The notes beneath the pieces were generated by a model that was given only the letters and a program-made list of their open reading frames with translations, was not told where the DNA came from and searched no databases. This document shows positions 2,499 through 21,455 of a stretch of 64,000 nucleotides of DNA, piece after piece. The stretch is from Arthrobacter sp. ATA002 (GTDB lineage: Bacteria > Actinomycetota > Actinomycetes > Actinomycetales > Micrococcaceae): contig NZ_CP114015.1 of the NCBI RefSeq assembly GCF_026898095.1, forward strand, positions 1,550,001 through 1,614,000. The letters run 5' to 3'. Positions within the stretch are counted from its first letter, which is position 1. Each line of letters starts with the position of its first letter. A program made the position numbers and the translations under genes.

Positions 2499-2523
2499 AT
2501 CAACCCCGGGAGGGGGTTACGAC

Positions 2524-3344
2524 TTACCGGCGCGATGCGGCGGCGGCACCGCTGCGGCGCAGCGCGACGGCGGCGCCGGCCAGGAGCAGGACCGCAAGTC
2601 CGGCACCGGCGGCGAGCATCTGCCCGTTGCCCTCATCCGGGGAGGCCAGGGCACCGGGCACGGCATTGGGTGCCGATTCCATGCCTTCGATGGTTTGCGT
2701 GGCCAGGGCGAGGTTGCCGTCCTCGAGCGAGCCCCACGCGTAGACGAAGGTATGGGTGCCCTCGGAGAGGGTAAGGTCGGCCGGGCCGATGACCGGTTCG
2801 GTGGTTCCGCTGCCGCGACAGATGCTGAAATGGTGCCGGCGTCAACCGCCAGTGTCTCCTCACCGGGGTTTTCCAGCCCGGTGATCACCGGAGATCCGTT
2901 GGCCAGCACGTCGACGGCGGGAGCTGCGGCCGTGTGCCGGACGGTCAGGTGTGACTTGCCCGGAGCCACGGTGGAGAGGTCGTTGGTGTAGAAGTTTGCC
3001 GTGGGTGCACCCGAGGCATCGAGGTTGGCGACGGCAGTGTAGTTTCCTCCCGCCGCCATTTCGACGGTGACCGGTCCGATGATCGGTGCCGAGGCATCGG
3101 CGGCGTCGGGCGCAGTAATGGCGAGTTCGTAGCTGCCTCCGGGCAGGTCAAGCGGCCCGGCCAGCGTTCCGGGGGTGAAATCGTCGAGGGTCAGTGCTCC
3201 GTTGACGTACACATCCACCGTTGTGTCCGGCACAGCGTGCAGGACGGAGAGCTGGGCGGTGTCCGCGGCTGCCGCGGGGGTCATGAACCCGACTCCGGCG
3301 GTCAGTCCTGCGGCTGCAGCGAGGGCGGTGACGGTCTTGCGCAT
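2524..3344 (-). CDS. DUF4397-domain secreted surface protein, frame broken once
   Basis: About 273 residues when read across one break. A signal peptide (MRKTVTALAAAAGLTAGVGF, cleaved near AAAA-D) precedes two beta-rich DUF4397 repeats, the first starting AQLSVLHAVPDTTVDVYVNG and the second HLTVRHTAAAPAVDVLANG. The frame breaks near 2811 (one base missing). The other frame continues GTTEPVIGPADLTL through a second half to a C-terminal hydrophobic helix (MLAAGAGLAVLLLAGAAVAL) and an Arg-rich tail ending at TAA 2524-2526. The tail has the shape of a sortase sorting signal, but I see no LPxTG before the helix. AAGGAG precedes the ATG at 3344. Function is unknown; the context is a sigma/anti-sigma/sortase surface locus. 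Confidence 0.8.
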
Positions 3345-3480
3345 GATGTCTCCTTGATGGTCGCGTCTCCGCCGGCCGGCGAAGGTGTGCTGTTGCTTAC
3401 ACCCCCTCTACTTCCGGCAGCCCGGGTTTGGATGCAGTTGCATGGAATTATTTTTCCGGCGCGCCTGAGCGCGCCGCTGC

Positions 3481-3512
3481 GGGCCCGGCCGGTTCCCGGC
3501 GCGGCCGGGCCC
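3481..3512. repeat. GC-rich inverted repeat upstream of tRNA-Arg
   Basis: Perfect 11-bp arms GGGCCCGGCCG (3481-3491) and CGGCCGGGCCC (3502-3512) flank a 10-nt loop. It sits 20 nt before tRNA-Arg and between divergent transcripts. No T run follows, so its role is unclear. Confidence 0.5.
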
Positions 3513-3532
3513 GTAGTATCATCGACTGGTTG

Positions 3533-3605
3533 CCCCCCGTAGCTCAATGGATAGAGCAACGGCCTTCTAATCCGTAGGTTGCGCGTTCGAGTCGCGCCGG
3601 GGGGA
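3533..3605 (+). tRNA. tRNA-Arg (anticodon TCT)
   Basis: A 73-nt cloverleaf. The 7-bp acceptor stem pairs CCCCCCG (3533-3539) with CGGGGGG (3598-3604), with discriminator A at 3605. The D stem is GCTC/GAGC, the anticodon loop is CTTCTAA with TCT at 3566-3568, and the T arm is GCGCG-TTCGAGT-CGCGC. The CCA end is not encoded. It converges with the alpha-xylosidase gene 23 nt away. Confidence 0.95.
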
Positions 3606-3628
3606 CTGTGCGCACCGCCGCCTCCCGG

Positions 3629-5805
3629 TCAGGAGGGGTCGGCCAGCACCGCCCCGCCGGACACTGTGATCGCGAATGAGACCTGTCCGCCGTTGGAAGC
3701 GGGCAGCTCCAGATCCGGATACTGCCCGTCCGGCGCCTCGAAAGCCCGGAACTCGACCTGTTCAGCCCAGTCGTAGTCCGGCCGGTCCGCCACCGTCCCC
3801 ACCGGCAGCACCGTCCCGGGACGGACAAAGAGGGCAGCTTCGAACACGGAGAACGTCCGGGTGTGCCAGCGGCCGCCGGGAAGCTGTTCACCCGACTCGA
3901 AATGGGTCCACACGCCGTCGGGCAGGTAGAAGGAAACCGTGCCGCCCGCGCTGAAGACCGGGGCCACCAGCAGATCCGAACCAAGCATGTACTGCCGGTC
4001 CAGCTGCGCACAGCCGGGGTCGTCGGGAAACTCCAGGAACATCGGACGCATGACCGGGGTGCCGGCCCGGTGGGCCTGCTCCGCAGCGTGCAGCAAATAC
4101 GGCATCAGCTGCATTTTCAGGCGGGTGAAGTGCCGCAGGACGTCACTGGATTCATCATCCACCAGCCATGGCACCCGGTAGGAATTGGAACCGTGCAGCC
4201 TTGAATGCGAGGACAGCAGTCCAAAGGCTATCCAGCGCTTGAACAGCTCCGGATCCGGTGTCCCCTCGAACCCTCCGATGTCATGGCTCCAGAATCCAAA
4301 GCCCGACGCGGACAACGAGAGGCCTCCGCGCAGCGATTCGGACATCGCGGTGAAGGTGGATTCGCAGTCGCCGCCCCAGTGCACCGGCATTTTCTGGCCG
4401 CCGGTGGTGGCTGAGCGGGCGAAGAGCACTGCTTCGCCTTCACCGAGTTCCTTGGTGAGGAGCTCAAAGACGCTCTCGTTGTAGAGCTGCGCGTAATAGT
4501 TGTGCATCCGCTGCGGATCCGAGCTGTCATGCCAGACGACATCGGTGGGGATGCGCTCGCCGAAGTCGGTCTTGAAGGAGTCCACGCCCTGGCCGAGCAG
4601 GTGCCGCAGCTGGTCCTGATACCACTGCACCGCGTCCGGGTTGGTGAAGTCCACCAGCGCCATGCCGGCCTGCCACATGTCCCACTGCCAGACGGACCCG
4701 TCCGCCCGCTTCACCAGATAGCCCTTGTCCCTGCCTTCGGCGAACAGACGGGACCGCTGGGCGATGTAGGGATTGATCCACACGCAGACCTTCAACCCGC
4801 GCCCGTGGAGCCGGCGGATCAGCCCTTCGGGATCCGGGAACGTCGCCGGGTCCCAGACAAAGTCGCTCCAGTGGAACGCCCGCATCCAGTGGCAGTCGAA
4901 ATGGAAAACGGAAAGCGGAAGGTTGCGTTCCTCCATTCCGTCGATGAAGGACATGACTGTCTTCTCGTCGTAGTTGGTGGTGAACGAAGTGGACAGCCAC
5001 AGTCCGTAGGACCACGCCGGGAGCCGCGGGGGCCTGCCGGTGAGTTCGGTGTACCGGCGCAGGATGTCCTTCGGCGTGGGGCCGTAGATCAGGAAATACT
5101 GCAGGCGCTGGCCCTCCACGCTGAACTGTGTCCGGGACACGACCTCGGACCCGACCTCGAAAGAGACCCGTTCGGGCTGGTTGACGAACACTCCGTAGCC
5201 GTCGTTCGTGAGGTAGAAGGGAATATTCTTGTACGCCAGTTCGCTCGACGTGCCTCCGTCTTCATTCCAGACGTCGATGGACTGGCCGTTCTTCACGAAC
5301 GCGCCGAAGCGTTCACCCAGCCCGTAGACGTTGGTTCCCACTCCCAGGGTCAGCTGCTCGTGCACGAAGGTGCGGCCGTCCCTGTCGGTGACGACGCCGA
5401 TGCTGCGCGGCACCGACGAGGTCAGCAGACGGCCCTCGGCAGTGAAATCCACGTGCCAGTCCCCGGAGGTGCTGATGGCTGCGGACAGCCGGCCCGAGGT
5501 GAATCTGACGCGTGAGTCTTCCGTCTGGATCCGGACCCGGGGGTGGGTCTGTTCGACCGCAAAGTGCGGGCCCCGCTGCACGCCTCCTGGAAGTGCTCGA
5601 TGGTGACGCCGATGACGTCTTCCAGCGGCGATTCGAAGGTGACGGTCAGCTGCGGACAGTTCAGCGCATCTCCGCGCCCTTCGATTTTCCTGGTGGGGGC
5701 GTATACGAGAAGACGGTCGCCGTCGGCCTCCACCTCGGACACGTCGCGGGGCCGCAGGACAGCCATGCCTTCCCGGGGCAGCCAGTAACCGTCAGTGAAT
5801 TTCAT
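3629..5805 (-). CDS. yicI: GH31 alpha-xylosidase (YicI-like), frame broken once
   Basis: Cytoplasmic exo-enzyme of glycoside hydrolase family 31 that removes non-reducing alpha-1,6-xylose from xyloglucan oligosaccharides or isoprimeverose. About 725 residues across one break near 5583 (one base lost between EHFQE and QRGPHF). The nucleophile Asp lies in FKTDFGERIP (residue about 414) and the acid/base Asp in VHWGGDCEST (about 480). Both fall where YicI has them, and the Cys after the acid/base is typical of alpha-xylosidases rather than alpha-glucosidases. There is no signal peptide. The start overlaps the end of the GH42 gene by 14 nt, indicating co-translation. Confidence 0.9.
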
Positions 5806-7846
5806 GTGTGGTCCTTATGGTTTCGTCGTTGACATTGTTGCGGGCGCTGCCGGAAAGCTCGAGTACAACCGCCCCGTATGGTTCCAGTTCCAGGTCCGGT
5901 CCGGCCCGGTGCCCGGTCAGGAGGTCAGTGCCGGCAGCCGGAGCCCGGACGCTGCGCCGGACGCCGCCGTGGTTTAGTAGAAACAGCCACTGTCCGCGGT
6001 GGACCGCCTCGACGTCGTCGGGCAGCCCGCCCGAAAAAACGGAAGTGATGCCGGCGGCGGCAACCGCGTCCATTACCACTGCCGAGAGGGCAGCGTCGTC
6101 CAGGTCCGCCCCCACGTACCAAGCCTGGCCGCTGCCGTAAGGATGGTGGGTGAGGGCGGGTTTCCCGGCCAGGGGACCGCTGGAGAAGCAGGCCAGCGCC
6201 CGGGCTCCGTCCAGCCGCAGGTCCTCCGCCCAGAAGTATGCGGTTCCTGCCGGCGCGGCGGGCGAGGCGAAGGCGACGGCGGCAGGTTTGGCTAGGGGAA
6301 CCCATTCCTCGCCGCTGACGCCCAGGCACCTGCGCAGGAGCGCAGGGAACCGTCCGGTGGCCAGGCGGGCATTTTCATCGGCCACGCCGGTGAACGGGCC
6401 GGCCAGGAAGGCGCCGCCGGCCGCCGCGTACTCTTCCAGGGCTTCAGCATGGGCCGCCCGCAGCAGGAAGAGGTTGGGGGCCAGTACCAGCGCAAACCGA
6501 CTGAGGTCGGATCCCGGATGAACCACCTCCACCGCTATCCCGTGACGCAGCAGGGGCCGGTAGAAGGAGAGCATCTGATCCATGACCCGCAACCGCTCCG
6601 ACGGGCGGGCACTTTCCTCTGCTGCCCACCAGCTGTCCCAGTCGAACAGGATGGCGACGCTGGCTGGAACGCCGGTGCCCGTGACGGGGGCCAGCGCCCG
6701 GAGCGACTTCCCCAGGGCAGCTGTTTCGCGGTAAACGCGGGTATCTGCGCCGGCCAGCGGCACGACGGCGGAATGGAAACGTTCGGCGCCGGCTGCGGAC
6801 TGGCGAAACTGGAAGAAGCAAATGCCGTCCGCGCCCCGGGCCACCGCGGAGAGCGCGTCAATGCGGAGGGCGCCGGGCGCTTTGGGAACGTTGTGGCTGC
6901 GCCAGTTCACAGCTGATGTCGCGGACTCGAGCAGGAGCCAGGGGCGGCCGGATCCGAGGCCCCGGCACAGGTCATGGGTCAGGGCGCCGAGTTCGCGTGA
7001 TCCGGGATCCGCGGGATCGGTGTACCAGTCGTTGGCTACGACATCTGTTTCCGGGGCCAGAGAAAAGTAGTCGGCTCCGGGAAAGAAGCCCATGAGGTTG
7101 GTCGTGACGGGTTTCTCCGGATCATGCCGCCGGATGATGTCGCGCTGCAGCCGGTAAAGGGATAGCAGCTCATCCGAGGTGAAGCGCTTGAAATCCAGGG
7201 CCTGCGCGGGATTGCCGATGTAGGGGGCCCGGCGCGGAGGGAGAATCTCCTCCCACGAGGAGTAGCGCTGGCTCCAGAACGCCGTGCCCCAGGCTGCGTT
7301 GAGTTCTTCGAGGGACCCGTGCCGCTTCTGCAGCCAGCCGCGGAAGGCGTGGGCGGTCTCGTCGTCGAAACTGACCTGGCCCAGCTCGTTGCCCACATGC
7401 CACATGGCCACGGCGGGGTGGGATCCGTACCGCCGGGCCAGGGCTTCGGTTACCGAGGCGGCAGCCCTGCGGTAGGCGGAGGATGAGGGATTGAACTGGT
7501 TTCGTGACCCGTACCAGAGGGTGCGTCCGTCCGCATCCTGGGGCAGGCTGCCGGGGTAGCGGTGCCCCAGCCAGGGCGGGGGAGAGGCCGTGGGAGTGGC
7601 AAGGTCCACCCGGATACCGCCGTCATGCAGCAGATCAAGGATCCGGTCAAGCCAGCCGAAATTCCAGCGGCCCTCCTCGGGTTCGAGCTGGGCCCAGCTG
7701 AAGACGCCCACGGTAACGAGGTTGATGCCGGCATCCTGCATCAGCGCAATGTCCTGGGGCCACACCTCTTCCGGCCATTGTTCCGGGTTGTAGTCGGCAC
7801 CGAAGAACAGGGATCCCTGCTCTGCGAAGTTGGGTGGAAAAGTCAT
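5792..7846 (-). CDS. GH42 beta-galactosidase
   Basis: A 684-residue cytoplasmic glycoside hydrolase family 42 enzyme that removes terminal beta-linked galactose. The N-terminus FGADYNPEQWPEEVW is the family hallmark. The acid/base Glu is in GNELGQ (residue about 154) and the nucleophile Glu in LLLESATSAVNW (about 307), followed by the trimerisation domain and a C-terminal beta domain. I chose the ATG at 7846 because GAAAGGA stands 6 nt upstream. A longer frame to 7954 exists but lacks homology-like sequence. It is first in a two-gene unit with the alpha-xylosidase and divergent from the LacI-type regulator. In this context it probably strips galactose from xyloglucan side chains. Confidence 0.92.
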   Translation of the reverse strand: MTFPPNFAEQGSLFFGADYNPEQWPEEVWPQDIALMQDAGINLVTVGVFSWAQLEPEEGRWNFGWLDRILDLLHDGGIRVDLATPTASPPPWLGHRYPGSLPQDADGRTLWYGSRNQFNPSSSAYRRAAASVTEALARRYGSHPAVAMWHVGNELGQVSFDDETAHAFRGWLQKRHGSLEELNAAWGTAFWSQRYSSWEEILPPRRAPYIGNPAQALDFKRFTSDELLSLYRLQRDIIRRHDPEKPVTTNLMGFFPGADYFSLAPETDVVANDWYTDPADPGSRELGALTHDLCRGLGSGRPWLLLESATSAVNWRSHNVPKAPGALRIDALSAVARGADGICFFQFRQSAAGAERFHSAVVPLAGADTRVYRETAALGKSLRALAPVTGTGVPASVAILFDWDSWWAAEESARPSERLRVMDQMLSFYRPLLRHGIAVEVVHPGSDLSRFALVLAPNLFLLRAAHAEALEEYAAAGGAFLAGPFTGVADENARLATGRFPALLRRCLGVSGEEWVPLAKPAAVAFASPAAPAGTAYFWAEDLRLDGARALACFSSGPLAGKPALTHHPYGSGQAWYVGADLDDAALSAVVMDAVAAAGITSVFSGGLPDDVEAVHRGQWLFLLNHGGVRRSVRAPAAGTDLLTGHRAGPDLELEPYGAVVLELSGSARNNVNDETIRTTHEIH

Positions 7847-7859
7847 CGAATCCTTTCGA
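7846..7859. promoter_or_regulatory. Candidate LacI-family operator at the GH42 start
   Basis: TCGAATCCTTTCGA is an inverted repeat with 5-bp arms TCGAA/TTCGA. It overlaps the GH42 start codon and ribosome-binding site. It resembles sites at 7942 and 12820, so it is a candidate for the divergent LacI protein, but its position inside the translation start makes it the weakest of the three. Confidence 0.4.
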
Positions 7860-7941
7860 TTCTCTTGGCGGAGCATGGACGTTTTTCGAAAAGGGATCCG
7901 TTGCGCCGCGGGGCCGCAGAGCTTAGGTTGGGCAGGAGCGG

Positions 7942-7959
7942 TGTCGAATTCCATCGACA
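7942..7959. promoter_or_regulatory. Candidate LacI-family operator in the divergent intergenic region
   Basis: TGTCGAATTCCATCGACA is an 18-bp inverted repeat with perfect 6-bp arms TGTCGA/TCGACA. It lies between the GH42 gene and the LacI gene and shares TGTCGAAT with the site at 12820 before the transporter operon. Confidence 0.55.
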
Positions 7960-8019
7960 GCCGACGAACAGCTGTCGCAGCGGGGGATCCTGCAGCCGGC
8001 CGGAAAGGAACAGTGCGCG

Positions 8020-9036
8020 ATGCCCACGATGAGCGAAGTAGCCCGAGCAGCCGGGGTATCCACGAGCACCGTCTCCTACGTGCTCAGCGGTAAGCGCAGC
8101 ATCTCCGAAGAAACCCGCAGGCAGGTGCAGGAGGCCGTCAGCCGGCTCGGTTACAGTCCCCACGCGGGAGCACGTTCCCTGGCGTCCAACCGCTCCAATG
8201 TGCTGGGACTGATGGCCCCGCTGCGCGCTGACGTCAATGTGAGCGTGGTGATGCAGTTCGTCGCCGCCGTCGTTTCCGCGGCCCGGGAGTTCGACCAGGA
8301 TGTCCTGCTGCTCACCCAGGACGACGCCGAAGGGATTGAGCGCGTGACGTCCCGGTCCATGGTGGACGGACTGATCATGATGGACATTGAGGCAGCCGAC
8401 CCGCGCATCCCGCGCCTGGCCAAGCTCCGCAAGCCCGCGGTGCTGATCGGCCTTCCCGACGATGCGCAGGGTTTGAGCTGTGTTGACTTCGATTTTGCGT
8501 CAGCCTCCAAAATTGCTGTCCGGCACCTGGCGGACCTGGGTCATCAAAGCGTTGCCTTCATTGGTTCTCCGCCGGCTTCCCTGGCCCGGCATGCGACGTA
8601 TGCCGACCGCGCAGCGTCGGGGTTTGAGCAGGCGTGCCGGGACGCCGGCCTCGGCTGCAGCCTGCATGCCAGCGGCGCCACCTCCGCAGATCTGGGCGAA
8701 GTGCTGGATCACATCTTCCGCTCCGGCCGCGGCGACTCCGCGGTTACCGGGCTGGTGGTGCACAACGAGGCACTGGTGCCGATGCTGCGCGAAGCGCTGG
8801 CCGGAATTGGGCTGAGCGTGCCCGATGATGTCTCGGTCGTCGCGGTGGCACCCGTCGATGTGGCCACTGCGTCAGCCCGGCCCTGGACGGCCGTCAGCAT
8901 TCCGGCCAGGGAGATCGGCCGTGCGGCGGTGGAGATGGTGATGGACAGGCTGAACTCGGACAAACCGGTTGAACTGCGCCTGATCCTCCCGGCGCTGGAC
9001 GTGCGCACGACGACGGCGGCTCCGCCGCACCGCTGA
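8020..9036 (+). CDS. LacI-family transcriptional regulator of the glycoside locus
   Basis: A 338-residue regulator. The N-terminal LacI helix-turn-helix is MSEVARAAGVSTSTVSYVLS, with the hinge-helix sequence VSRLGYSPHAGARSLASNRS. A periplasmic-binding-protein-like sugar-sensing domain starts near residue 60 (NVLGLMAPL) and ends in DVRTTTAAPP. It is transcribed away from the GH42/GH31 pair and lies between that pair and the ABC transporter genes. It is therefore probably the local repressor, released by an imported oligosaccharide or a breakdown product. AAAGGA lies about 12 nt before the ATG at 8020; the Met at codon 4 is an alternative start. Confidence 0.9.
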   Translation: MPTMSEVARAAGVSTSTVSYVLSGKRSISEETRRQVQEAVSRLGYSPHAGARSLASNRSNVLGLMAPLRADVNVSVVMQFVAAVVSAAREFDQDVLLLTQDDAEGIERVTSRSMVDGLIMMDIEAADPRIPRLAKLRKPAVLIGLPDDAQGLSCVDFDFASASKIAVRHLADLGHQSVAFIGSPPASLARHATYADRAASGFEQACRDAGLGCSLHASGATSADLGEVLDHIFRSGRGDSAVTGLVVHNEALVPMLREALAGIGLSVPDDVSVVAVAPVDVATASARPWTAVSIPAREIGRAAVEMVMDRLNSDKPVELRLILPALDVRTTTAAPPHR

Positions 9037-9118
9037 TGCCGTCTCCGCCCGCGTCCTGACCGTCCGGCGGGGCCGGGCTGCCGGCGCCGTCCCCGGGCCC
9101 CGGCGTCCGCCGTCGTCA

Positions 9119-10042
9119 TCAGCCCTTCACCGCGCCAATCATGACGCCCTTGGTGAAGTGCTTTTGCACAAAGGGATAGACAAACAGGATGGGCACCATG
9201 GCGATGACGATCACTGCCATCTGCAGGGCAAGGGAGGCGGCGACGCCCTGCCCGATGTCGATCTGCCCCGGCACTGAAACACCCTGCAGCACGTAGGAGC
9301 GCAGGACCACCTGGAGCGGGTTCTTGGAGCTGTCGTTGATGTAGAGGACGGCGTTGAAGAACGCGTTCCAATATCCGACGCCGTAAAACAGCGCGATGAC
9401 AGCCGTCACCGCTTTCGACATGGGGAGCACAATCTGGCCCAGGATGCGCCACTCGCTGGCGCCGTCGATCCGGGCGCTGTCCAGGATCCCCTGGTCAATG
9501 CCCATAAAGAACCCCCGCAGGATGATGATGTTGAACACCGACACGGCTCCGGGGAGGATCAGCGCCCAGTAGGAGTTGATCAGCCCCAGCCCGGAGACCA
9601 GCAGGTAGGTCGGAATCATTCCGGCGCCAAAGAACATGGTGATCAGCAGGATGAACAGGATGGGCGTGTGGGCGAAGGTGCCGGGCCTGGACAGGCCGTA
9701 GGCGCACAGGACTGATACGACGACGCTCAGCAGGGTGCCGACGGCGGTAACGCCCACGCTTACGGCGACGGCGCGCGTGACCACGCCGCCGTCGAGAATC
9801 TGGCGGTAAGCGTCAAAGGTGATGCCGTCGGGAATCAGGACCAGCCCGCCCGCTTCGGTGATGGTGGCCTGCGAGGACAGGCTGGTGAGGACGATCGTGT
9901 ACAGCGGCCCGAGGACCGCCAGCACCACCAGGGTGAGGACCAACGCTTTGGCGGCCTTCCCGGCCGCGGAGGGCTCTTCCTCCCAGGCCGGCCTTCCGCT
10001 GGAGCGGCGGTCCGGTTTTTCGGAATCCATGAGAACTGTCAT
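9119..10042 (-). CDS. ABC sugar transporter permease, LplC/YtcP type
   Basis: A 307-residue inner-membrane permease of the carbohydrate uptake CUT1 class. About six membrane helices are visible (for example LVLTLVVLAVLGPLYTIVL and PILFILLITMFFGAGMIP). The EAA loop DSARIDGASEWRILGQIVLP contacts the ATPase. The C-terminus QKHFTKGVMIGAVKG is the LplC/YtcP signature. The ATG overlaps the upstream permease stop by 4 nt, so the two permeases are translationally coupled. It should form the heterodimeric channel with the product of the next gene. No ATPase gene is present in the cluster. Confidence 0.93.
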   Translation of the reverse strand: MTVLMDSEKPDRRSSGRPAWEEEPSAAGKAAKALVLTLVVLAVLGPLYTIVLTSLSSQATITEAGGLVLIPDGITFDAYRQILDGGVVTRAVAVSVGVTAVGTLLSVVVSVLCAYGLSRPGTFAHTPILFILLITMFFGAGMIPTYLLVSGLGLINSYWALILPGAVSVFNIIILRGFFMGIDQGILDSARIDGASEWRILGQIVLPMSKAVTAVIALFYGVGYWNAFFNAVLYINDSSKNPLQVVLRSYVLQGVSVPGQIDIGQGVAASLALQMAVIVIAMVPILFVYPFVQKHFTKGVMIGAVKG

Positions 10043-11037
10043 GACTTTGAGTACACCCCGTTTTCACCCATCAGGTGGGCTATCTTGTTGGCTCCAAGGA
10101 TGAGTCCCAGGGAGACCAGGCCTTTGACGAGCCCGGCGGCTGCCGCATAACTCCAGTCGCCGTTTTGGACCCCGGTGTAATAGACGAAGGTGTCCAGGAC
10201 TTCGGAAGCCCCGGCTCCAACCGCCGCCCGCTGCAGAATGAGCTGTTCGAAGCCCACCGATAGGGCATCACCGAGCCGCAGGATCAGCAGCAGGATAATC
10301 ACCGGGCGCAGCCCGGGCAGGGTAATGTGCCACAACCGCTGGCGGCGGTTCGCGCCGTCGACCGCGGCAGCCTCATACTGTGCGGGATCGATCGCGTTCA
10401 GCGCCGCCAAAAACACGATGATGCCCCAGCCGGCGTCCTTCCAGATGGATTGGGACGTAATCAGGAACAGGAAGGTGTCGGGATTGGTCATGATGTCCAT
10501 GCCGCCCCACCCGCGGGAAGCCAGCAGCTGGTTGAGCAGTCCTGCGCCGCCGAAGATCTGCTGGAACACTGAGACAACGAGCACCCAGGAGAAGAAGTGG
10601 GGCAGATAGACGACGGCCTGGATGGTGGCACGCATGGCCGGCCGTACCAGTGAGTTCAGCAGCAGGGCCAGGGCGATGGGGACCGGGAAGAAAAAGACGA
10701 GCTGGAACCCGGTGATCACCAGTGTGTTCTGGACGGCAAGGTAGAAGTTCGGGTCGACAAAGACGCGGGCAAAATTTTGCAGACCCACCCAGGGACTGTC
10801 CGCAATCCCGATAAAGGGGGAATAGTCCTTGAAGGCAACGACGTTGCCCAGGATCGGGACATAGGAGAAGACGATCAGCAGGGCGACGGCGGGGACGGTC
10901 ATCAGCAGCAGGGACTTGTCCCGCCGCAGCCGTGTCCGCAGGGTCAGCCGGCGCTGGACCCCTGCCATTCCCGGGCGGGGAACGGTTCCCGGACCTGATT
11001 CGCGCTGGGCCACCGCCGTGGGCGCACTGTTCCTCAT
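10039..11037 (-). CDS. ABC sugar transporter permease, LplB type
   Basis: A 332-residue partner permease. A cytoplasmic N-terminal extension with basic residues (RRLTLRTRLRRDKSLLLMT) leads into the first helix. The LplB family motif VAFKDYSPFIGI follows, and the EAA loop is EAAAVDGANRRQRLWHITLP. Overlaps of 1 nt with the binding-protein gene upstream and 4 nt with the second permease downstream show a tight operon. LplB/LplC systems are often found with glycoside hydrolases acting on plant oligosaccharides, which fits the neighbouring genes. Confidence 0.93.
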   Translation of the reverse strand: MRNSAPTAVAQRESGPGTVPRPGMAGVQRRLTLRTRLRRDKSLLLMTVPAVALLIVFSYVPILGNVVAFKDYSPFIGIADSPWVGLQNFARVFVDPNFYLAVQNTLVITGFQLVFFFPVPIALALLLNSLVRPAMRATIQAVVYLPHFFSWVLVVSVFQQIFGGAGLLNQLLASRGWGGMDIMTNPDTFLFLITSQSIWKDAGWGIIVFLAALNAIDPAQYEAAAVDGANRRQRLWHITLPGLRPVIILLLILRLGDALSVGFEQLILQRAAVGAGASEVLDTFVYYTGVQNGDWSYAAAAGLVKGLVSLGLILGANKIAHLMGENGVYSKS

Positions 11038-12751
11038 CAGGCGTTGAGGAAGCCGGCGTAGAAGTCGCGCAGCTCGTCGCCGCCGGACTTCTTCCAGGTG
11101 GCCAGGGCGGAGTCGAGGTCAGACATGGACTTGCGTCCCCGGGCAATGTCTTTGGCCAGGTCGTCAAACGGCTTGCCCAGGGAAGCGAATTTGGTGTCCT
11201 CCTGAATCTGCATCCCGAAGAACAGGCCCTCCTGCACGTTGGGAGCCTGCCGCGCTTCCCACTCGCTGCGCTCCTGTACATATCCCGGATACTGGACCAT
11301 GGAATTCACGACCGGAGGACTGACCAGGAACGCATAGGTGCTGGTGACTTCAGCGCGTCCCTTGTCGGTGGCCTGGGGCACGTTCTGGCCGTCGAGGGTG
11401 TAGTGGACTCCTTCGACGCCGTTGGTGATGAGCCGGTTCTCTACGGTGCCGAACGGTGCCGCCATGTAATCGGCCAGCGCCAGGATCTCCTCGATCTTCG
11501 ACTTGTCCTCGTTCTTCTTGACGAAGCTGAAGATGCTGGCAGGCGAGGCTTTGAACAGGGTGGGCTTGCCGCCGTCGGGTGCGAAGAAATCCATGGCCTG
11601 CATGCGGAACTGCGGATTGGTCGGCAGCACGCGGGCGAGGGCCTCGTGCCAACTGCCCAGCCCGTCGCCGGTCATCAGGACCGCACCGGATTCAAACCGG
11701 GATTTGGCCATCTGAGTGTTGCCCGCCACGGCATCCGGATGCACCGCGCCGGAAGCGAACAGCTTGGCGATCCATTCCAGGGCCGCCCGATATTGATCGC
11801 TTTCCAGCTTGTGCTGGAGCTTTCCGTCAATCTCCTGCCACATTGGCGGCACGCCGTGCATGATCTGGGCCAGGTTCCACACATCGTCGGAGCCCCAGCG
11901 GCTCTTGGACGCGTCGGTGGCCTCTTTCGCAATGTCCAAATACTCGGCCGCGGAGGCCGGTTGCTTCAGACCCAGTTCTTCGAACAGGTCCGCCCGGAAG
12001 AAGAACGCATCGTTCAGCAGCGTTCCGGGATATGGAAGGCCGTAGAGTCCGCCGTTGAACACACTGAACTTCCAGGCGTCGGTGGGCAGGTTCGCGAGGT
12101 TCGGGTACTTCTTGACCTTGTCGCCGGCCAGGTATTCGGACAGGTCAGTGAAGAGGTTTTCGGCCGCCTGCCCAAACCGCGGCGGAAGATTCCAGGACGG
12201 GATGACCACCCAGTCCGGCACATCCTTGGGCGAGGCGAGCACCGTCTGGATCTTGTCGTAGTACGTGTTTCCGTCATTGACCTGGAATTTGACGGTCGCT
12301 CCCAGTTCTTTGTTGACGCTGGTGTAGTAGCTGTTTTCGGGGAGCGCCGGAGGGACCGTCCACCAGGCCGGGCTCATGGCGGTGTACGTTCCGCCCTTGC
12401 CTGGAACGGAGGCAACCGAGGCCGTCAGGTCGGCCGGGAGGGAGGTGAAGCCCGGCGTCGAACCGTTGACGCCGGGGATGTCGGGAGTCGCCAGGCTGAT
12501 CGGATAGTGGTTGGGGATCAGTTGTGCAATCGTGGCGCCCAAATCTTTGGAGGAGGTGATCTGCGATGTTGCGCCTCCGCTGCCGCAGGCGGTGAGGAAG
12601 GCGGGCACGCTGGCCGCGACGGCTGCGCCGCCCAGGAGGCCCAGAAGGACCTGCGGTCGACCGGGCGCTTGGAGAGCTGGCCCAGCAGGCCCGCTGCAGT
12701 ACCGGTGTCTGTGGTTTTCGGACGGTTGCGCAGGGCTTTGTCGCGGGGCAT
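11037..12751 (-). CDS. Extracellular oligosaccharide-binding lipoprotein, frame broken once
   Basis: About 571 residues across one break near 12648 (one C lost). The start at 12751 follows AAAGGAG at 7 nt. Rejoining the frames gives the N-terminus KRPVDRRSFLGLLGGAAVAA followed by SVPAFLTACGSGG. This is a twin-arginine motif (DRRSFL), a hydrophobic stretch and a lipobox (LTAC), so the protein is probably exported folded by Tat and lipid-anchored. The mature part is a large LplA-type solute-binding protein (YYTSVNKELGATVKFQ, SRFESGAVLMTGDG). It is first in the importer operon and captures the sugar for the LplB/LplC permeases. Confidence 0.88.
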
Positions 12752-12819
12752 GTCCCACTCCTTTGTGGATCGGTTGTTCCGGTCGGTTGGCAGTCCGTGG
12801 TGCGGCGGTGGAGCCACAC

Positions 12820-12837
12820 TGTCGAATCGATTCGATT
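12820..12837. promoter_or_regulatory. Candidate LacI-family operator before the transporter operon
   Basis: TGTCGAATCGATTCGATT contains the perfect 14-bp palindrome TCGAATCGATTCGA (12822-12835). It lies in the divergent region between the binding-protein gene and the GH3 gene and shares TGTCGAAT with the site at 7942, suggesting one regulator for both flanks of the locus. Confidence 0.55.
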
Positions 12838-12988
12838 CTTCTCGACCCTAAAGCACCACTTGTAGGGATGCAAGCATTTTTTGTGATGCCGCTCACGCCG
12901 TAGGATGGCTTGCAAATACAGGTCCAGAGCGCCCATCGCAGGACCGAACGGCGACCTGCGTCGGGACTCAGCCTCCCGCGACCGCAGG

Positions 12989-12998
12989 GAAGCGCTTC
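12989..12998. promoter_or_regulatory. AAGCGCTT palindrome upstream of the GH3 gene
   Basis: GAAGCGCTTC is a perfect 10-bp palindrome with the AAGCGCTT core typical of LacI-family operators. It stands 29 nt before the GH3 start codon. It differs from the TCGAAT sites, so it may bind a second LacI-type protein such as a global sugar regulator. Confidence 0.45.
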
Positions 12999-13026
12999 GA
13001 TCAACCAACGACTGAACGGAAGAAAC

Positions 13027-15873
13027 ATGGTGACGCAGCTAGCGAACCGCACTCCGGAAAACTTCCTGGCGGCTATGACCCAGGCCCAGAAGACCGCACT
13101 GCTGCACCAGCATTCGCCGGCGCTTCAGGAGCTGGGCCTGGCAGAGTTCCGCACGGGCACCGAAGCAGCGCACGGGGTGGCGTGGCTCGGCACCGCCACC
13201 GTTTTTCCGCAGACCGTTGGGCTGGCCGCGAGCTGGGACGAAGACCTGCTCCGGCGGGTCGGGAACGCCATTGGACGAGAAGTCCGGGCGAAGAAGGCCG
13301 ACGATCCCACCGTGAGCCTGAACGTCTGGGCGCCGGTCGTGAATCCGCTGCGCCACCCGCTGTGGGGCCGCAACGAGGAGGGATTCTCCGAGGATCCGCG
13401 GTTGACCGGAATCCTCGCTGCGGCCTTCTGCCGTGGCCTGCGGGGCGCCGGCGGGCACTGGCTCACCGTCCCCACGCTGAAGCACTTCCTGGGATACAAC
13501 AACGAAACCGACCGCAATGTGTCCTCCACGCAGCTGCGGCTCCGGGTCCTCCACGAGTACGAACTCCCCGCGTACCGGATCCCGGTGGAGGACGGAAACG
13601 TGGGCGCAGTCATGCTTGCCTACAACCTCGTCAACGGGCGGCCTGCACACGTCAGTGACCTGGTGGGAGAACACCTGAGGCGGTGGCACGGCGGGGAGGA
13701 CCTGGTGGTCGTTACCGACGCGGGCGCCCCCACCAGCCTGTACACGGCCGAGAAGTACTTTCCGGACGCTGCGGCTGCCCATGCCGCCGCCGTCCGTGCC
13801 GGCGTGGACAATTTCACCGACGACGGAACCGACCCGGGACCCACCATTGCGCACCTGCGCCAGGCACTGGACCGGGGCCTGCTCACCCCGGAGGACATTG
13901 ACCGCAGCGTGCTCCGCCTGCTGAAGCTGCGCGAACGGACCGGCGAATTCGAAGGGGCCCGAGATCCGCTCGCGTCCGGTGAAGCAGTCGATAGTGCGGC
14001 CCACCGGGCCCTGGCGGCTGAAGCTGCGGCCAAGTCGGTGGTGCTGCTGCGCAACGAACCCGTTGCCGGTGCGGCGGACCAGTCGCGGCTCCTTCCCCTG
14101 GGGGCAGACCCCGGGCGGGTGGCGGTCATCGGTGTGCCGGCCACCCGGGTGCTGACCGACTGGTACAGCGGTACGCCCACCTACTCCGTCAGCCCGGCCG
14201 AGGCGCTCGCCGGGCGGTATGGGGATGTCAATATCACGGAGGGGACTGACACCCTGGCTTTGCGGAGCGTGCGAACCGGAAAATACCTGGGCTCGGCCGC
14301 TGCCGACGAGGCTCTGTCCTGCATTGCCTCCACAGCCGGGGAGGCGGAGCAGTTTGAGGTCAAGGACTGGGGCAGCGGAGAGCTCACGCTGCGCAGCGTG
14401 GGCACCGGGCTGCTTGTGACCGGCGGTTCCGGCGCCTACCTGTACCCGTCAGCGCCGCGGGTAGGGGGATGGGTGGTGCAGGAGAGTTTCCGGCTGCACC
14501 GCGACGACGACGGCACAGTGGCCATCCAGCACACCGGCACGGGCAAATGGGTGCACGTGGAGGCGCACACGGGCAGTGCCCTGCTGGTCGCGGGAACAGC
14601 GGCCGGAGCTGACCGGTTCGTCCTGCGCACCGTCAGGGCCGGAGTCGCCGCAGCGGTGCAGGCAGCAGCCGCAGCCGACGTCGTCGTCGTGGCGGTGGGC
14701 AACGATCCGCACCTGGGCGGACGGGAAACCCTGGACCGCCGCACGCTTGAGCTGTCCCAGTCCGATCAGGAGCTGGTCCGGGCGGTGCATGAGGCTAATC
14801 CCCGCACCGTCCTGGCCATCATTTCCTCCTACCCCTATGCCCTCGGCGCGCTCGCCGACCTGCCTGCCATCGTGTGGTCCTCCCACGGCGGACAGGAACT
14901 GGGACATGCCATGGACGCTGTCCTCAGCGGGGCGGCCGAACCGGCCGGCCGCCTGCCGCAGACCTGGTACGCGGCGGATTCGGACCTGCCAGACATCCTG
15001 GACTACGACATCATCAGCTCCGGGGCGACCTATCAATACAGCGGGGCTGAGCCGTTGTTTCCGTTCGGGCACGGGCTGACGTACGGCTGCGTCCACTACG
15101 AGGAGCTCAGCGTTGCCGGAGCGTCCGGAGTCTTCGCTGGCGCCGGCACGTTCACCGTCGACGTCACGGTTTCCAACGACGGCACCCGGCCCGCGCAGGA
15201 GGTGATCCAGCTCTATGTCACCGCTGCCGGGCACCGGGCCGACTTTCCCCGGCGGCGGCTGGCCGGGCACTCCAGGGTGCTGCTGCAGCCCGGACAGCGG
15301 CACACGGAGCGGATCACGGTCAGCACCGGTGCCTTCGAAACGTTCAGCCTCACGGCCGGGCGGATGCTCGTGGAGCCCGGGCGGTATGTCCTGCTCGCGG
15401 GCTCTTCCGCCGGCAACCTGCCGCTGCAGGCCGTCGTGGAGGCCGACGGTGACGGCGGCCCGCTGCGCCGGCGCGGCGGCCGGATCCCCGCCGAGGCGTT
15501 CGACGCGTGCAGCAACCTCGAACTGGTGCCCGAAACACGCGGAACGGGCACGGCAGTGGCGCCGAAAGATTCCTCGCGCCCTGCCTGGGCCGAATACCGT
15601 GGCTGGGAAGCTCCCGGCGCGGGCCGGGAGGGCGGAGCCGGCGGCCGGGAGAGCGGGGCGGAAGTGCAGGTGGTCAGCTCCGGCGGCGGCAGCGTGGAGC
15701 TGCAATCCCGGGGGCTGGGCGGGCAGTGGCTCCGCGCCGGACACGGCGGGGCAGCGTCCGTTCCGGCCGGGACGTGCGGCACGGTGACGCTCACCGTGCC
15801 GGACTCCGCAACGGACGCGCTTCGCCTCGTTGTCCGCGGACCGGTGACCCTGTCTGCCCTGCGGGTGCACTGA
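13027..15873 (+). CDS. GH3 beta-glucosidase with inserted beta-trefoil-like domain
   Basis: A 948-residue family 3 glycoside hydrolase with no signal peptide, so cytoplasmic. The first domain has KHFLGYNNETDRN and the likely nucleophile Asp in VVTDAGAP (residue about 231), where most relatives have SDW. The second domain resumes at AAADVVVVAVGNDPHLGGRE and includes ELGHAMDAVLSG. A fibronectin-III-like C-terminal domain contains RRLAGHSRVLLQPGQ. Residues about 402-538 are an insertion with three similar strands (LALRSVRTGKYLG, LTLRSVGTGLLV, VAIQHTGTGKWVHV), like a fascin or ricin-type beta-trefoil. GGAAG precedes the ATG. The stop overlaps the GH95 start (TGATG). It probably hydrolyses the beta-glucan backbone after debranching. 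Confidence 0.88.
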   Translation: MVTQLANRTPENFLAAMTQAQKTALLHQHSPALQELGLAEFRTGTEAAHGVAWLGTATVFPQTVGLAASWDEDLLRRVGNAIGREVRAKKADDPTVSLNVWAPVVNPLRHPLWGRNEEGFSEDPRLTGILAAAFCRGLRGAGGHWLTVPTLKHFLGYNNETDRNVSSTQLRLRVLHEYELPAYRIPVEDGNVGAVMLAYNLVNGRPAHVSDLVGEHLRRWHGGEDLVVVTDAGAPTSLYTAEKYFPDAAAAHAAAVRAGVDNFTDDGTDPGPTIAHLRQALDRGLLTPEDIDRSVLRLLKLRERTGEFEGARDPLASGEAVDSAAHRALAAEAAAKSVVLLRNEPVAGAADQSRLLPLGADPGRVAVIGVPATRVLTDWYSGTPTYSVSPAEALAGRYGDVNITEGTDTLALRSVRTGKYLGSAAADEALSCIASTAGEAEQFEVKDWGSGELTLRSVGTGLLVTGGSGAYLYPSAPRVGGWVVQESFRLHRDDDGTVAIQHTGTGKWVHVEAHTGSALLVAGTAAGADRFVLRTVRAGVAAAVQAAAAADVVVVAVGNDPHLGGRETLDRRTLELSQSDQELVRAVHEANPRTVLAIISSYPYALGALADLPAIVWSSHGGQELGHAMDAVLSGAAEPAGRLPQTWYAADSDLPDILDYDIISSGATYQYSGAEPLFPFGHGLTYGCVHYEELSVAGASGVFAGAGTFTVDVTVSNDGTRPAQEVIQLYVTAAGHRADFPRRRLAGHSRVLLQPGQRHTERITVSTGAFETFSLTAGRMLVEPGRYVLLAGSSAGNLPLQAVVEADGDGGPLRRRGGRIPAEAFDACSNLELVPETRGTGTAVAPKDSSRPAWAEYRGWEAPGAGREGGAGGRESGAEVQVVSSGGGSVELQSRGLGGQWLRAGHGGAASVPAGTCGTVTLTVPDSATDALRLVVRGPVTLSALRVH

Positions 15874-18378
15874 TGGCCGCAGCGAATGCCAGCGGCGGTG
15901 CCGACATTGCTTCCGGCCGTTTCCACGTGCTGGGGTACCCGGAGCCGGCGCTGGCCTTCACCGAAGCGTTGCCGCTGGGCAACGGACGGCTGGGAGCAAT
16001 GTGTTTTGGCGGAGCGGGGCGGGACCTGATCCGGCTCAATGACGGGACGGCATGGTCCGGGTCCCCGGCCAGTGAACTGTTCGCTGAACCGCAGGATGCC
16101 GCCCGGAACGCGGAGGAGCTTCGCAAAGCCCGTCAGCTCATCCGTGATGGACGGTATTCCGCAGCGGAGCAGTGCCTCGCCGGGATGTCTCAGCCCTACA
16201 CGCAGTCATACCTGCCTTTCGCCGATCTGGTGATTACGGCAGGTCAGGGAGCTGTGCAGCCGGATCGCGGCACTTACCGGCGCGCCCTGGACCTGCGGAC
16301 CGGCATCCATACCCACAGCTACCGGATGCGGGGCAACCGGGTAACCCAGCAGGTCTTCGTGTCGGCTGTCCGCGGGGTGCTGGTTGTGGAAGTGGAAGCT
16401 GACCATCCGATGCACCTCGCGGTGGAGCTGCAGAGTCAGCTTCGGATCCACGGCAGTGCCGGCAGCGCCGGTACGCACGGGCTGCAGTTGCTCCTGCCCT
16501 CCGATGTAGCGCCCGCCCATGCCGGACCCGGCGCCGGCGTAACGTACGGTGGGCCGGCACTGGCTGGCGCCGTCGTCCTGTGCTGGGAACACGACGGCGG
16601 GGAATCCGCAACGACGGACAGCGGCCTGAGTGCCGGCGGAGTCACGCGGGCGCGTATTTGCCTGGCCACGGACACCACCTTCGCGGCACTTGGCGTCCAG
16701 CCCCGGGGCTCGGCCGCCGAAGCGTATGAGCGGGCGGAGGCCAGGGCACGAGAGGCGCTGAGCGCCGGAAGCGAAACGCCGCGTGCTGAACATCTCGCCG
16801 CCCACGGCAGCCTGTACGGCCGGGCCGCGCTCAGCCTGGGACCGTCTGCGGCATCCTCGCCGCAGGTGGCAGCCTCCCCGGGCGGGGCAGTCTCGCCGGG
16901 AGGGGCGGCCTCCCCGGCAGTGGCGGACGCGGACGTGACGGCCCTGATCGGCAACCGGGACGCTGCCCCGCAGCTCGCTGCGCTGCTGTTCAATTACGGC
17001 CGGTATCTGCTGCTGTGCAGCTCGCGCCCGGGATCCCTGCCGGCGACACTGCAGGGGCTTTGGAACGAGGACATGCAGCCGCCGTGGAGCTCGAACTACA
17101 CGCTGAACATCAACACCGAAATGAACTACTGGGGAGCCGGGCCGGCAAACCTGGCAGAGTGCTTTGAGCCGTTCCTGGAGCTGGCCGCCGCTCTGGCCCG
17201 GAACGGGGAGGCCACAGCGGCAAGGGTCTACGGCCTTCCGGGCTGGGTCGTCCATCACAACACCGACGCGTGGGCTTTTTCCTCCCCGTCGCAGGCGACG
17301 CGGCCTGGTCCTTCTGGCCGCTGGGAGCGGCTTGGCTGTCCACGCAACTTGCCGAACATCTGCGGTTCGGCACCTCCACTGAGGCACAAATCCGGCAAGT
17401 GCGGACCATCATCCTCGGTGCCTGCCGGTTCTATCTGGTGTGGCTTCAGCCGATGCCTGACGGATCCCTTGGCACTGTGCCGTCCACATCACCGGAGAAC
17501 CATTTCCAGACTCCCGAGGGGCAGGCCGCAGCGGCCCGGTCCTCCACCGCTGACATCGCGATGATTCGGCAGCTCTTCAGGGACGCCCTGGAGCTCGGTC
17601 CGGAGCAGGACCCTGTGGTTCGCCGGGCTGCGGAGGCACTGCGGCTGCTCCCGCCAGTCCCGCTCACACCGGAGGGGCTGGTGTCGGAATGGGCGGACAA
17701 CTTCCGGCACCCGGAACCCCACCACCGCCACCTGTCCCACGTGTGGTTTGCCTATCCGGGCCGCGGGGATCTCGACGCAGCGCTTGCAGCGGCTGTTTCA
17801 CGCACGCTGGACGGCCGGGGCGATGATTCCACCGGGTGGTCGCTGGTCTGGAAAATGGCGATGCGGGCGCGGCTCGGGCAAGCAGAGGCCGTCGGGCGGC
17901 TGCTGCCCCTGATCCTTCGGAGCGCCGGTGCCGGAGAAGGACGGCAGTGGGCCGGCGGGTTGTATCCGAACCTGTTCAGCGCCCATCCGCCCTTCCAGAT
18001 CGATGGAAATTTGGGCTATGTGGCCGCAGTTGCTGAGTGCCTGATCCAGAGCCGGACATCCGCGGGGCATCCGTCCGCCGTCCTGCTGCTGCCGGCCCTG
18101 CCGCCGCAGTGGTGCGGAGGGGTGCGGTCCGCGGGCTGGTGGTCGTGCCCGGGGTGGTCGCCGGGCTCGAATGGGCTGCGGACGGGACGGGAGCCGCGAA
18201 ACTGGTGCGGGCCGAACTGCAGGCCCGCTCGGCCCGCTCCGCGGGCACTTACCAGCTTGAATGGAACGGCGTACGCCGCCTGGCCCATATCGGCGCTGGG
18301 GAAGCCACGGTGGTATCCGCGGCGGACTTCACTGGCGCGGATCCGCTTTGCCCTGCACACCCGTCCGCCGCACCGTAA
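15873..18378 (+). CDS. GH95 alpha-L-fucosidase, frame broken twice
   Basis: About 835 residues across two single-base losses (near 17273 in TGGGCTTTTT and near 18118 in GGAGGGG). The N-terminus has [16 protein letters not shown]. The catalytic region has [19 protein letters not shown], whose Asn residues correspond to those of AfcA, then [22 protein letters not shown] carries the conserved Asp, and a beta domain follows. GH95 enzymes cleave alpha-1,2-linked fucose (some act on alpha-L-galactose) by inversion, the linkage that caps xyloglucan side chains. There is no signal peptide. The start overlaps the GH3 stop by 1 nt, so the pair is co-translated. The break pattern matches that of essential genes here, so I treat it as intact. 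Confidence 0.87.
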
Positions 18379-18490
18379 CCGCGGCCCGTTTTCCACAGTT
18401 CCCAGGCCGCGGCGCGCTGAGGAGGGTTTACCGGCCCAGACTTTCGTGTACCGGCGGGAATCCGTCCGGCCGGCGCGGAAGGGGAACAGC

Positions 18491-19063
18491 ATGAGCGACA
18501 CCATCACGGTCCGTGGCTACGTAGCCACGGAAGTCCGGAGCACCACGGCCGACAGCGGGCTGGCCATCGCCAGTTTCCGAATGTGCTCCACTGAACGGCG
18601 CTATGACCGGGACGCCGGCAGCTGGGTCGACGGCCAGACAAATTGGTATTCGGTCAGCCTGTTCCGGCAGCTGGCAACCAACGCGGCTTTCAGCATCCAT
18701 AAGGGAGACCGTGTGCTCGTGACCGGGCGGTTGAAAGTTCGGCAGTGGGCACTGGAGGATGGGCGCAGCGGTACCGCGGTTGACATCGATGCCGAGAGCG
18801 TAGGGCATGACCTGATGTGGGGGACCGCCAACTACCGGCGCAATGTCCAGGACCGTACCGCCACCGGCACCTCCGGCACTGAAGAAAGCGGTGACGACCT
18901 TCCGGCGGACCTGGACCTGGACACCGGAGAATTGATCGGTGCGGAAACAGGCGGTGAGGAAGCCGGTCGTGAGGAAACCGGTGAGGGGGCCGGTGACGGC
19001 CCCGGCGATCCCTTTGCCGCCGTGGAGGCATCCGGGCGGGGGCATGGCAGAATGGGCGGATGA
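18491..19063 (+). CDS. ssb: Single-stranded DNA-binding protein paralogue without acidic tip
   Basis: A 190-residue protein with an N-terminal OB fold of the SSB family ([48 protein letters not shown]). It binds single-stranded DNA in replication or repair. The second half is acidic and Gly-rich ([29 protein letters not shown]). It ends GHGRMGG and so lacks the DDDIPF-like tip through which canonical SSB recruits partners. It is therefore probably the accessory SSB, not the replicative one beside rpsF/rplI. GGAAGGGGAA precedes the ATG. It overlaps the next gene by 4 nt. Confidence 0.85.
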
Positions 19064-19512
19064 TTCGTGCACCGCGCAACCGCCGGCTGTCCCTGCTGAC
19101 CCTGACCGTCCTGCTGGCCGGGTCCGCGGCTTTGCTTGCCCCGGCTGCGGTTCCGGCAGCTCCGGGTGCGGCCGGTCCGGTGGAAGTTGCCGGCGTCGCC
19201 GCGCCGGCGCTTCCGGTGGCATCCCAGCCGACGGCTGATACGCTCACGGCCTCGCTGACAGCGCTCGCCGCAGCAACGCCCACTCCCAGCCGCGATGAAG
19301 TTCGGCGGGCATTCACCGAGGCGGGCTTCACCGCGGGCTCCGTGGAGGTTTCACTGGACCGCACACCAACCGGGCTGGCCGTTGACTCCATCCGCGGGGC
19401 CGCCCCACACGGAGGCGACTGCCTCTTCGGTGAAGTACGTGAGGGACAGGTGGCAGTAACTGCCCTTCCCCTGCTGGACTCGGGGTTCTGCTTCGTTGGA
19501 GACCAGCGCTAG
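19060..19512 (+). CDS. Secreted small protein (probably DUF6993-like), unknown function
   Basis: A 150-residue protein with a signal peptide ([20 protein letters not shown], cleavage near APAAVPA-A), an Ala/Pro-rich linker and a globular C-terminal domain of about 80 residues ([49 protein letters not shown]). The two Cys residues (GDC and GFC) could form a disulfide outside the cell. The arrangement resembles the actinobacterial family I recall as DUF6993; I could not verify this. The ATG overlaps the ssb stop by 4 nt, an odd pairing of a DNA-binding and an exported protein. Confidence 0.7.
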
Positions 19513-19671
19513 CTGTAATCTCCAGGACATTAGGTACGTCCGGAGCGCAGGCCCACGCGCCGGACAGGGCATCGGGCGGGGCGCAGGCAGGGCAGGTGCG
19601 GCAGCGGCGTAAGTTTCACGGGCACCGGGTCAAATGGCACTTATCCCAGTTGACGCACTAGCCTTAGTTCT

Positions 19672-21354: not shown

Positions 21355-21385
21355 GGAATACGGCCGTTCCGGCCATCCCCGGAAG

Positions 21386-21420: not shown

Positions 21421-21455
21421 CGGCTTCCGGGGAATGCGGAGCGCCCCCGGTGAGC

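Follow-up and report, generated by a model that had tools for sequence, protein, structure and literature searches.

Gene content of the locus

We analyzed a window of 64 kb from the 3.90 Mb single-contig genome of the soil bacterium Arthrobacter sp. ATA002, where the window means the whole stretch of DNA under study. Positions 3629 to 18378 of this window hold a gene cluster that very probably represents a LacI-controlled locus, acquired as an island beside a tRNA-Arg gene, for scavenging oligosaccharides, most likely fucose-bearing, of the plant polysaccharide xyloglucan through import and intracellular breakdown. From tRNA-Arg to ssb, the gene order is GH31 (-), GH42 (-), LacI (+), two CUT1-type permeases (-), binding protein (-), GH3 (+) and GH95 (+), with GH denoting a glycoside hydrolase family. 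This gene set (GH31, GH42, LacI, importer, GH3 and GH95) had been proposed at the same positions in an original prediction for this DNA, and all of its members were present by domain matches. The features of the region are as follows.

3533..3606, + strand: tRNA-Arg (TCT), left island border, found by ARAGORN and present in 12 same-genus stretches
3607..18481, borders approximate: genomic island of ~14.9 kb with the entire locus inside, unaligned in same-genus stretches
3629..5805, - strand: GH31, predicted YicI-type alpha-xylosidase, with a frame break at ~5575-5600 (PRK10658; alignment to the YicI structure)
5792..7846, - strand: GH42 beta-galactosidase, its end overlapping the GH31 start (PF02449, 469 bits)
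7846..7859: operator candidate TCGAATCCTTTCGA, with 1 mismatch, where GH42 starts and within the divergent GH42/LacI region
8020..9036, + strand: LacI-family regulator (PF00356, PF13377)
9119..10042, - strand: CUT1-type sugar permease (PF00528)
10039..11037, - strand: CUT1-type sugar permease (PF00528)
11037..12751, - strand: extracellular solute-binding lipoprotein, with a frame break at ~12650 (PF01547)
12822..12835: candidate operator TCGAATCGATTCGA, perfect, between the binding protein gene and GH3
13027..15873, + strand: GH3 exo-beta-glycosidase with a mostly-strand insert of beta-trefoil type (PF00933, PF01915, PF14310)
15873..18378, + strand: GH95 alpha-L-fucosidase or alpha-L-galactosidase, its start overlapping the GH3 stop, with breaks at ~17280 and ~18115 (PF14498, PF22124)
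18491..19063, + strand: ssb gene, right island border, named by eye from its sequence

The four enzymes had also been described as having no signal peptide, and our own judgment, made by eye, agrees. An open reading frame (ORF) on the opposite strand at 10932-12851 (+) and similar ORFs were taken, by eye, as high-GC overlaps.

The core genes and a candidate operator are conserved

Using GH3 as bait in genome contigs, we recovered 47 loci. In the stretch covered, all seven core genes were present in 29 of these, in Micrococcaceae, Cellulomonas and others, so that a check of conserved synteny, which had been suggested for this locus, came out in its favor. The hosts with all seven genes include Arthrobacter, Pseudarthrobacter, Cellulomonas, Oerskovia, Sanguibacter and Actinotalea. 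The transporter and GH3 occurred together in 43 of the 47 loci, and the four without this pair were either cut at a contig end (L027, L039) or came from distant Chitinophagaceae (L047, L048). Six other loci (L011, L024, L031, L032, L037, L041) were without GH42 only, in the stretch covered; their galactosidase may be encoded elsewhere or belong to another family.

Palindromes resembling TCGAAGCGCTTCGA, with at most 2 mismatches, were found in 68 of the 83 intergenic stretches searched, while one shuffle of the same stretches gave none for the six motifs checked. A scan of 48 loci (L013 and L116 being the same genome), allowing at most 1 mismatch to TCGAAnCGnTTCGA, yielded 100 sites. Of these, 92 were located upstream of a core-gene match, at a distance of ~450 bp or less; L027 and L039, the loci that are cut at GH3, had none. 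In the window itself, the site at 12822-12835 is perfect and the one at 7846-7859 has 1 mismatch. These results point to a LacI-family regulon whose target genes are preceded by a conserved palindromic operator, and this motif could serve as a genome marker for the regulon.

The GH31 and GH42 enzymes and the importer

The GH31 protein matched PF01055 (318 bits) and the NCBIfam alpha-xylosidase equivalog PRK10658, where it scored 1132.7 bits against a cut-off of 606. Over 637 aligned residues it matched Escherichia coli YicI (1we5, 2f2h) with 905 bits, and YicI residues D416, D482, F277, W345 and K414 were all conserved in the alignment. We take D416 and D482 to be the catalytic aspartates of YicI, and F277, W345, K414 and F308 to be its specificity residues. 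With a score far above the curated cut-off and the catalytic residues aligned, this protein is by sequence a YicI-type alpha-xylosidase. YicI Phe308 is replaced by His in the window enzyme (His231, counted from window position 5581), and each of the 8 Micrococcaceae rows in alignment A3, the window included, has His at this position; Phe is kept in the other 6 A3 rows, from Cellulomonas, Oerskovia, Sanguibacter, Microlunatus, Kineococcus and Actinotalea. The His of the Micrococcaceae enzymes possibly reflects a shift in specificity.

GH42 matched PF02449 (469 bits), with the catalytic, trimerisation and C-terminal domains of the family present, and its best solved relative was 9ta3 (575 bits). 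Neither GH42 nor the binding protein nor any piece of GH95 could be assigned to an NCBIfam family.

The two permeases matched PF00528 and the binding protein PF01547, and the gene list contains no importer ATPase gene within the locus. In alignment A1 of the binding protein, the lipobox Cys was invariant and the twin Arg nearly so. A PDB sequence search with this protein gave nothing useful. When a model built from 31 sequences (predicted local distance difference test score, pLDDT, 88.6) was searched with Foldseek, AlgQ2, AlgQ1 and FusA ranked among the best matches (query template modelling score 0.56-0.62, 13-17% identity), with other sugar-binding proteins close behind at slightly weaker E-values. 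The modelled fold thus has the cluster G type (AlgQ1/AlgQ2/FusA) among its best matches.

GH95 accompanies the core but is accessory

The GH95 gene is in three pieces in the assembly, within which PF14498 and PF22124 were matched. These pieces aligned to 2rdy, 7kmq, 8zbv and 4ufc, and the NIN, PSTSPE and QIDGN motifs were kept in the alignments to 4ufc and 2rdy; the roles of the catalytic Asn, Asn and Glu motifs have been described (PMC4491172). At the position of Thr370 in BACOVA_03438 (4ufc), the window enzyme has Thr, which was proposed as a mark of L-galactosidases (PMC4491172). XacAfc95 has Thr at the same position, yet is reported to be specific for L-fucose (PMC8245568), and we therefore dropped the Thr/His position as a test of fucose versus galactose. 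Judged by its context and not by the Thr residue, the window GH95 likely acts on fucose, though it may instead be an L-galactosidase.

We scored 395 family genomes for the core binding protein (E<=1e-100) and GH95 (E<=1e-25). The binding protein was found in 21 and GH95 in 33: both in 18, the core only in 3, GH95 only in 15 and neither in 359 (Fisher p 2e-19, phylogeny not corrected). Broken down by genus label, g32 has 7 genomes with both and none of the other kinds; g10 has 7 with both, 3 with the core only and 7 with GH95 only; g25 has 2 with both and 7 with GH95 only; g1 and g21 have 1 with both each; and g23 has 1 with GH95 only. Besides the window, 32 genomes have GH95, and in 23 of these we read its neighborhood: a stretch of 20 kb in 20 genomes, then G303, G048 and G338, with further stretches for G266, G124 and G286. 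GH95 lay within the cluster in six genomes (G000, G048, G266, G286, G292, G303), which carry four genus labels and have it on either flank; G286 has the same gene order and orientation as the window. In the remaining genomes read, GH95 was apart from the core.

These observations bear on a reading in which the locus does serve xyloglucan oligosaccharides but its GH95 is merely a neighbor, acting on an L-galactose cap or on another imported glycan, for example fucosylated arabinogalactan or rhamnogalacturonan side chains. The family contains L-galactosidases, the window enzyme has the Thr discussed above, 12 of the 18 genomes having both showed no GH95 next to the core, and 15 genomes have it without the core. 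Against this stand its occurrence in 18 of the 21 core genomes, its repeated place inside the cluster on either side, and the fucose specificity of XacAfc95, which makes the residue indecisive. We consider this reading unlikely, and favor a GH95 that takes part in xyloglucan oligosaccharide breakdown.

Elsewhere in the family, GH95 of G124 and G338 adjoins a second YicI-like GH31, 62-63% identical to that of the window (L100 9017-13551; L122 914-5082). In three family genomes (L098, L101, L104) a GH42 (41-42% identical) lies directly beside GH95 and away from the core; this pair is perhaps a separate fucosylated-glycan locus.

The GH3 enzyme and the proposed order of backbone cleavage

GH3 matched PF00933, PF01915 and PF14310, and its predicted structure (28 sequences, pLDDT 87.5) was similar to other GH3 enzymes. 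An insert at residues ~405-537 (window 14239-14640), in the C-terminal catalytic domain, consists mostly of strands and gave weak matches to RicinB_lectin_2 in Pfam (26.7 against a cut-off of 25.6) and to 7zoh, a module of a GH18 protein (E 1e-4). Such a beta-trefoil-like insert is unexpected in a GH3 that seems cytoplasmic.

GH3 might resemble the isoprimeverose-producing enzymes (IPases), releasing isoprimeverose that GH31 would then split, instead of alternating with GH31 as beta-glucosidase and alpha-xylosidase. IPases belong to GH3 (PMC6325624), and 5yot and 21ji, both named isoprimeverose-producing, were among the GH3 matches listed; they rank, however, only 34th and 37th among the best 60 listed, below many beta-glucosidases and beta-xylosidases, and the corresponding clostridial enzyme trio was shown to alternate along the oligosaccharide (PMC4780118). 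An IPase-like GH3 is therefore quite unlikely, and alternating cleavage by GH31 and GH3 is the order that we prefer.

The locus lies on an island beside tRNA-Arg

Positions 3607-18481 were unaligned in 12 of 12 same-genus stretches, which come from 12 of the 28 other genomes of the genus. Sequence left of the tRNA aligns, and on the right alignment resumes at 18475-18491 (ssb) in all 12. The tRNA-to-ssb gap could be measured in 9 of the 12 stretches (the start pattern was not found in the other 3) and was 227-360 bp in eight and 1464 bp in one. Within the genus, 3 of 29 genomes had a GH3 match at E<=1e-30, the other two having only partial matches of 107-110 bits, and 1 of 29 had GH95. Because the locus is rare in the genus, we infer that the island was gained in this genome rather than lost from the others. 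The GC content of the island (66.6%) is close to that of its flanks (68.8% and 65.8%), and composition therefore gives no signal. We set aside a tRNA-borne integrative element: no repeat of at least 10 bases was shared by the tRNA and window 18301-18500, and no integrase was recognized, by eye, among the large ORFs of the island.

Reading-frame breaks probably reflect the assembly

The original prediction had overlooked four reading-frame breaks in the locus: one in GH31 (~5575-5600), one in the binding protein (~12650) and two in GH95 (~17280 and ~18115). The GH31 start, MKFTDGYWLP, sits in another frame and places the start of the gene at ~5805; MKFTDGYW is shared by 13 A3 relatives. Outside the locus, we compared the window with ORFs from the same-genus genome G003, of which 37 were kept (14,260 aa in all, genes in overlapping stretches being counted twice in some cases), and this revealed 11 frame changes at 10 distinct places (2808, 23367, 24787, 27043, 30657, 33932, 40379, 43842, 46123 and 54304). 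ValS, PepN and ClpX are among the genes broken there, the others among the nine (of ten) broken genes looked at being less informative, and the G003 ORFs are uninterrupted where the window shifts frame. The reverse comparison, of 38 window ORFs with G003, also gave frame changes (8), and BLAST alone therefore gives no direction. ORF length at 2517-3344 is no test of a break, the window having 275 aa and relatives 244-283 aa from the match start. Because ValS, ClpX and PepN are broken elsewhere in the window too, the breaks probably stem from indel errors, of which the assembly appears to contain many, and less likely from decay of the locus.

True frameshifts, by which the GH95 gene and perhaps the locus would be decaying and non-functional, might be argued from the presence of four breaks within the locus and from the relative G303 (L119), which has a stop within its GH95 match and a GH31 matched in two pieces. 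The density of breaks, however, is similar outside the locus. Furthermore, GH95 matches in other family genomes lie in open frames of 682-1512 aa (795-905 aa in 24 of 36 rows) with a stop in one only, and genome completeness is 94%, as against 99-100% in the 28 other same-genus genomes. Decay is thus very unlikely. In G266 (L123) the GH3 match is split by ~1.2 kb.

Proposed function of the locus

According to the scheme that we favor, branched oligosaccharides made by other organisms would be taken up through the binding lipoprotein and both CUT1 permeases, energized by an ATPase encoded elsewhere in the genome. Inside the cell, GH95 would first cleave off the cap, a terminal alpha-1,2-L-fucosyl (or L-galactosyl) residue, and GH42 the beta-galactosyl unit that this exposes; GH31, acting on alpha-xylose at the non-reducing end, and GH3, acting on beta-glucose, would then alternate along the backbone. 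LacI would repress the GH42-GH31, transporter and GH3-GH95 units through the TCGAAnCGnTTCGA operators, and repression would be lifted when the oligosaccharide or a breakdown product is present. The entire cluster would have been acquired on the island that adjoins tRNA-Arg.

The synteny, the LacI-type operator and the YicI-type GH31 support the original prediction that fucosylated xyloglucan oligosaccharides are imported and broken down in the cytoplasm. Further support for the xyloglucan oligosaccharide reading comes from the association of GH95 with the core across genomes, from the AlgQ/FusA-like fold of the binding protein and from the experimentally proven clostridial analogue described below. 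An Arthrobacter-type xylose isomerase (702 bits) in the genome also counts in its favor. No match to PF00150 (GH5), PF00759 (GH9) or PF01670 (GH12) was found genome-wide, with positive controls matched and GH74 and GH16 not searched; a search for GH44 carries no weight, as control genomes also had no match. That the locus includes no endo-glucanase, as had been stated before, agrees with our gene list, and scavenging of fragments released by others is plausible because a GH5, GH9 or GH12 endoglucanase was not found in the genome.

Several observations weigh on the other side. In the stretch covered, GH95 (>150 bits) was present in only 2 of the 47 GH3 loci (L013, L030); three core genomes (G089, G360, G385) have no GH95, and with 15 genomes having it without the core, GH95 is an accessory gene, and one in three pieces in this assembly. 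GH31 carries His in place of YicI Phe308, and GH3 matches beta-xylosidase and beta-glucosidase NCBIfam models only far below their cut-offs. A FucI-type fucose isomerase was not found in the genome although controls matched; other fucose routes were not searched. At up to 2 mismatches, the window yields 5 operator-like sites, no more than chance would give (mean 2.25, a count of 5 being reached in 9 of 100 shuffles), and the case for the operator therefore rests on position and conservation. Finally, the substrate is a prediction drawn from genome comparison.

Instead of xyloglucan, the substrate might be a complex arabinoxylan capped with alpha-xylosyl and L-galactosyl units, like the one handled by Bacteroides ovatus PUL-XylL, which pairs GH31 with GH95 and whose GH31 strongly prefers corn xylan (PMC4491172). 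The best NCBIfam model for GH3, that of a beta-xylosidase (though far below cut-off), would fit such a glycan. We set this substrate aside as highly improbable, since a GH42 would not be expected for it, the GH31 is of YicI type, and no GH43, GH51, GH67 or GH115 was recognized by eye among ORFs of at least 250 aa in window 2500-22400, the rest of the genome not being searched.

A broader version of the xyloglucan reading, which we hold to be doubtful, would make the locus a horizontally mobile actinobacterial "cheater" module: a species in which no GH5, GH9 or GH12 endoglucanase was detected would have gained, in one step and beside a tRNA gene, all of the importer, regulator and exo-enzymes for fragments of fucosylated xyloglucan, the trefoil insert of GH3 would steer branched oligosaccharides, and fucose might be cross-fed. 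If this were true, the released fucose would not be used via FucI and might be available to others.

Comparison with known systems

The original prediction knew of no description of this exact set of genes in Arthrobacter, and this agrees with the literature that we searched, in which no description of such a locus in Micrococcaceae was found, judging by titles and the beginnings of abstracts; but loci of this kind have been in print since 2016, and other genomes of the family carry this one.

E. coli YicI shares both catalytic Asp and most specificity residues with the window GH31, and differs from it at Phe308, which is His in the window. The xyloglucan utilization loci (XyGULs) of Cellvibrio japonicus and Xanthomonas likewise combine GH31, a beta-galactosidase and GH95 for fucogalactoxyloglucan oligosaccharides (PMC4285296, PMC8245568). 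These are Gram-negative systems with TonB-dependent uptake and with GH35 where the window has GH42. The Xanthomonas XyGUL additionally has GH74 and an esterase (PMC8245568), and its GH31 has a PA14 domain, whereas the window GH31 has no PA14 match in Pfam. A parallel for the importer is the xyloglucan ATP-binding cassette (ABC) transporter Athe_2052-2054 of Anaerocellum bescii, whose xyloglucan-binding protein Athe_2052 was assigned to cluster G (AlgQ, FusA) in a preprint (PMC12710961); that system belongs to a thermophilic Firmicute and its affinity was measured, and the likeness runs through the AlgQ/FusA folds.

The closest precedent in kind is Ruminiclostridium cellulolyticum, in which ABC import of xyloglucan oligosaccharides and their cytoplasmic digestion by Gal42A, Xyl31A and Glu3A were established by genetics and enzymology in 2016 (PMC4780118). 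Its Ccel_2451-2458 cluster resembles the window locus in gene content: GH42, GH31 and GH3 are clustered and have no signal sequences (in the window, by eye), a binding protein and two permeases are adjacent, and the cluster has no ATPase gene as described there. Such clusters were offered as a marker of xyloglucan use in Gram-positive bacteria, and the legend of Fig. 12 of that article mentions alpha-fucosidase genes in the clusters compared. R. cellulolyticum differs in having secreted cellulosomal xyloglucanases, where GH5, GH9 and GH12 were undetected in the actinobacterial genome studied here, and a two-component regulator (Fig. 12a, on cellulosome-producing Firmicutes). Because LacI replaces this regulator, the window locus is not a member of the clostridial subtype; we do not take the two-component regulator as defining the wider kind.

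Altogether, the import-then-dismantle strategy is already known from clostridia, and the window locus is most likely a well-supported new example of it, to which our analysis adds the operator, the island, the tendency of GH95 to occur along with the core, an account of the frame breaks and the clostridial precedent itself. This would extend import-then-dismantle use of xyloglucan from clostridia to a broad actinobacterial group, and it provides a named, testable gene set by which Arthrobacter relatives might live on cell-wall fragments released by others.

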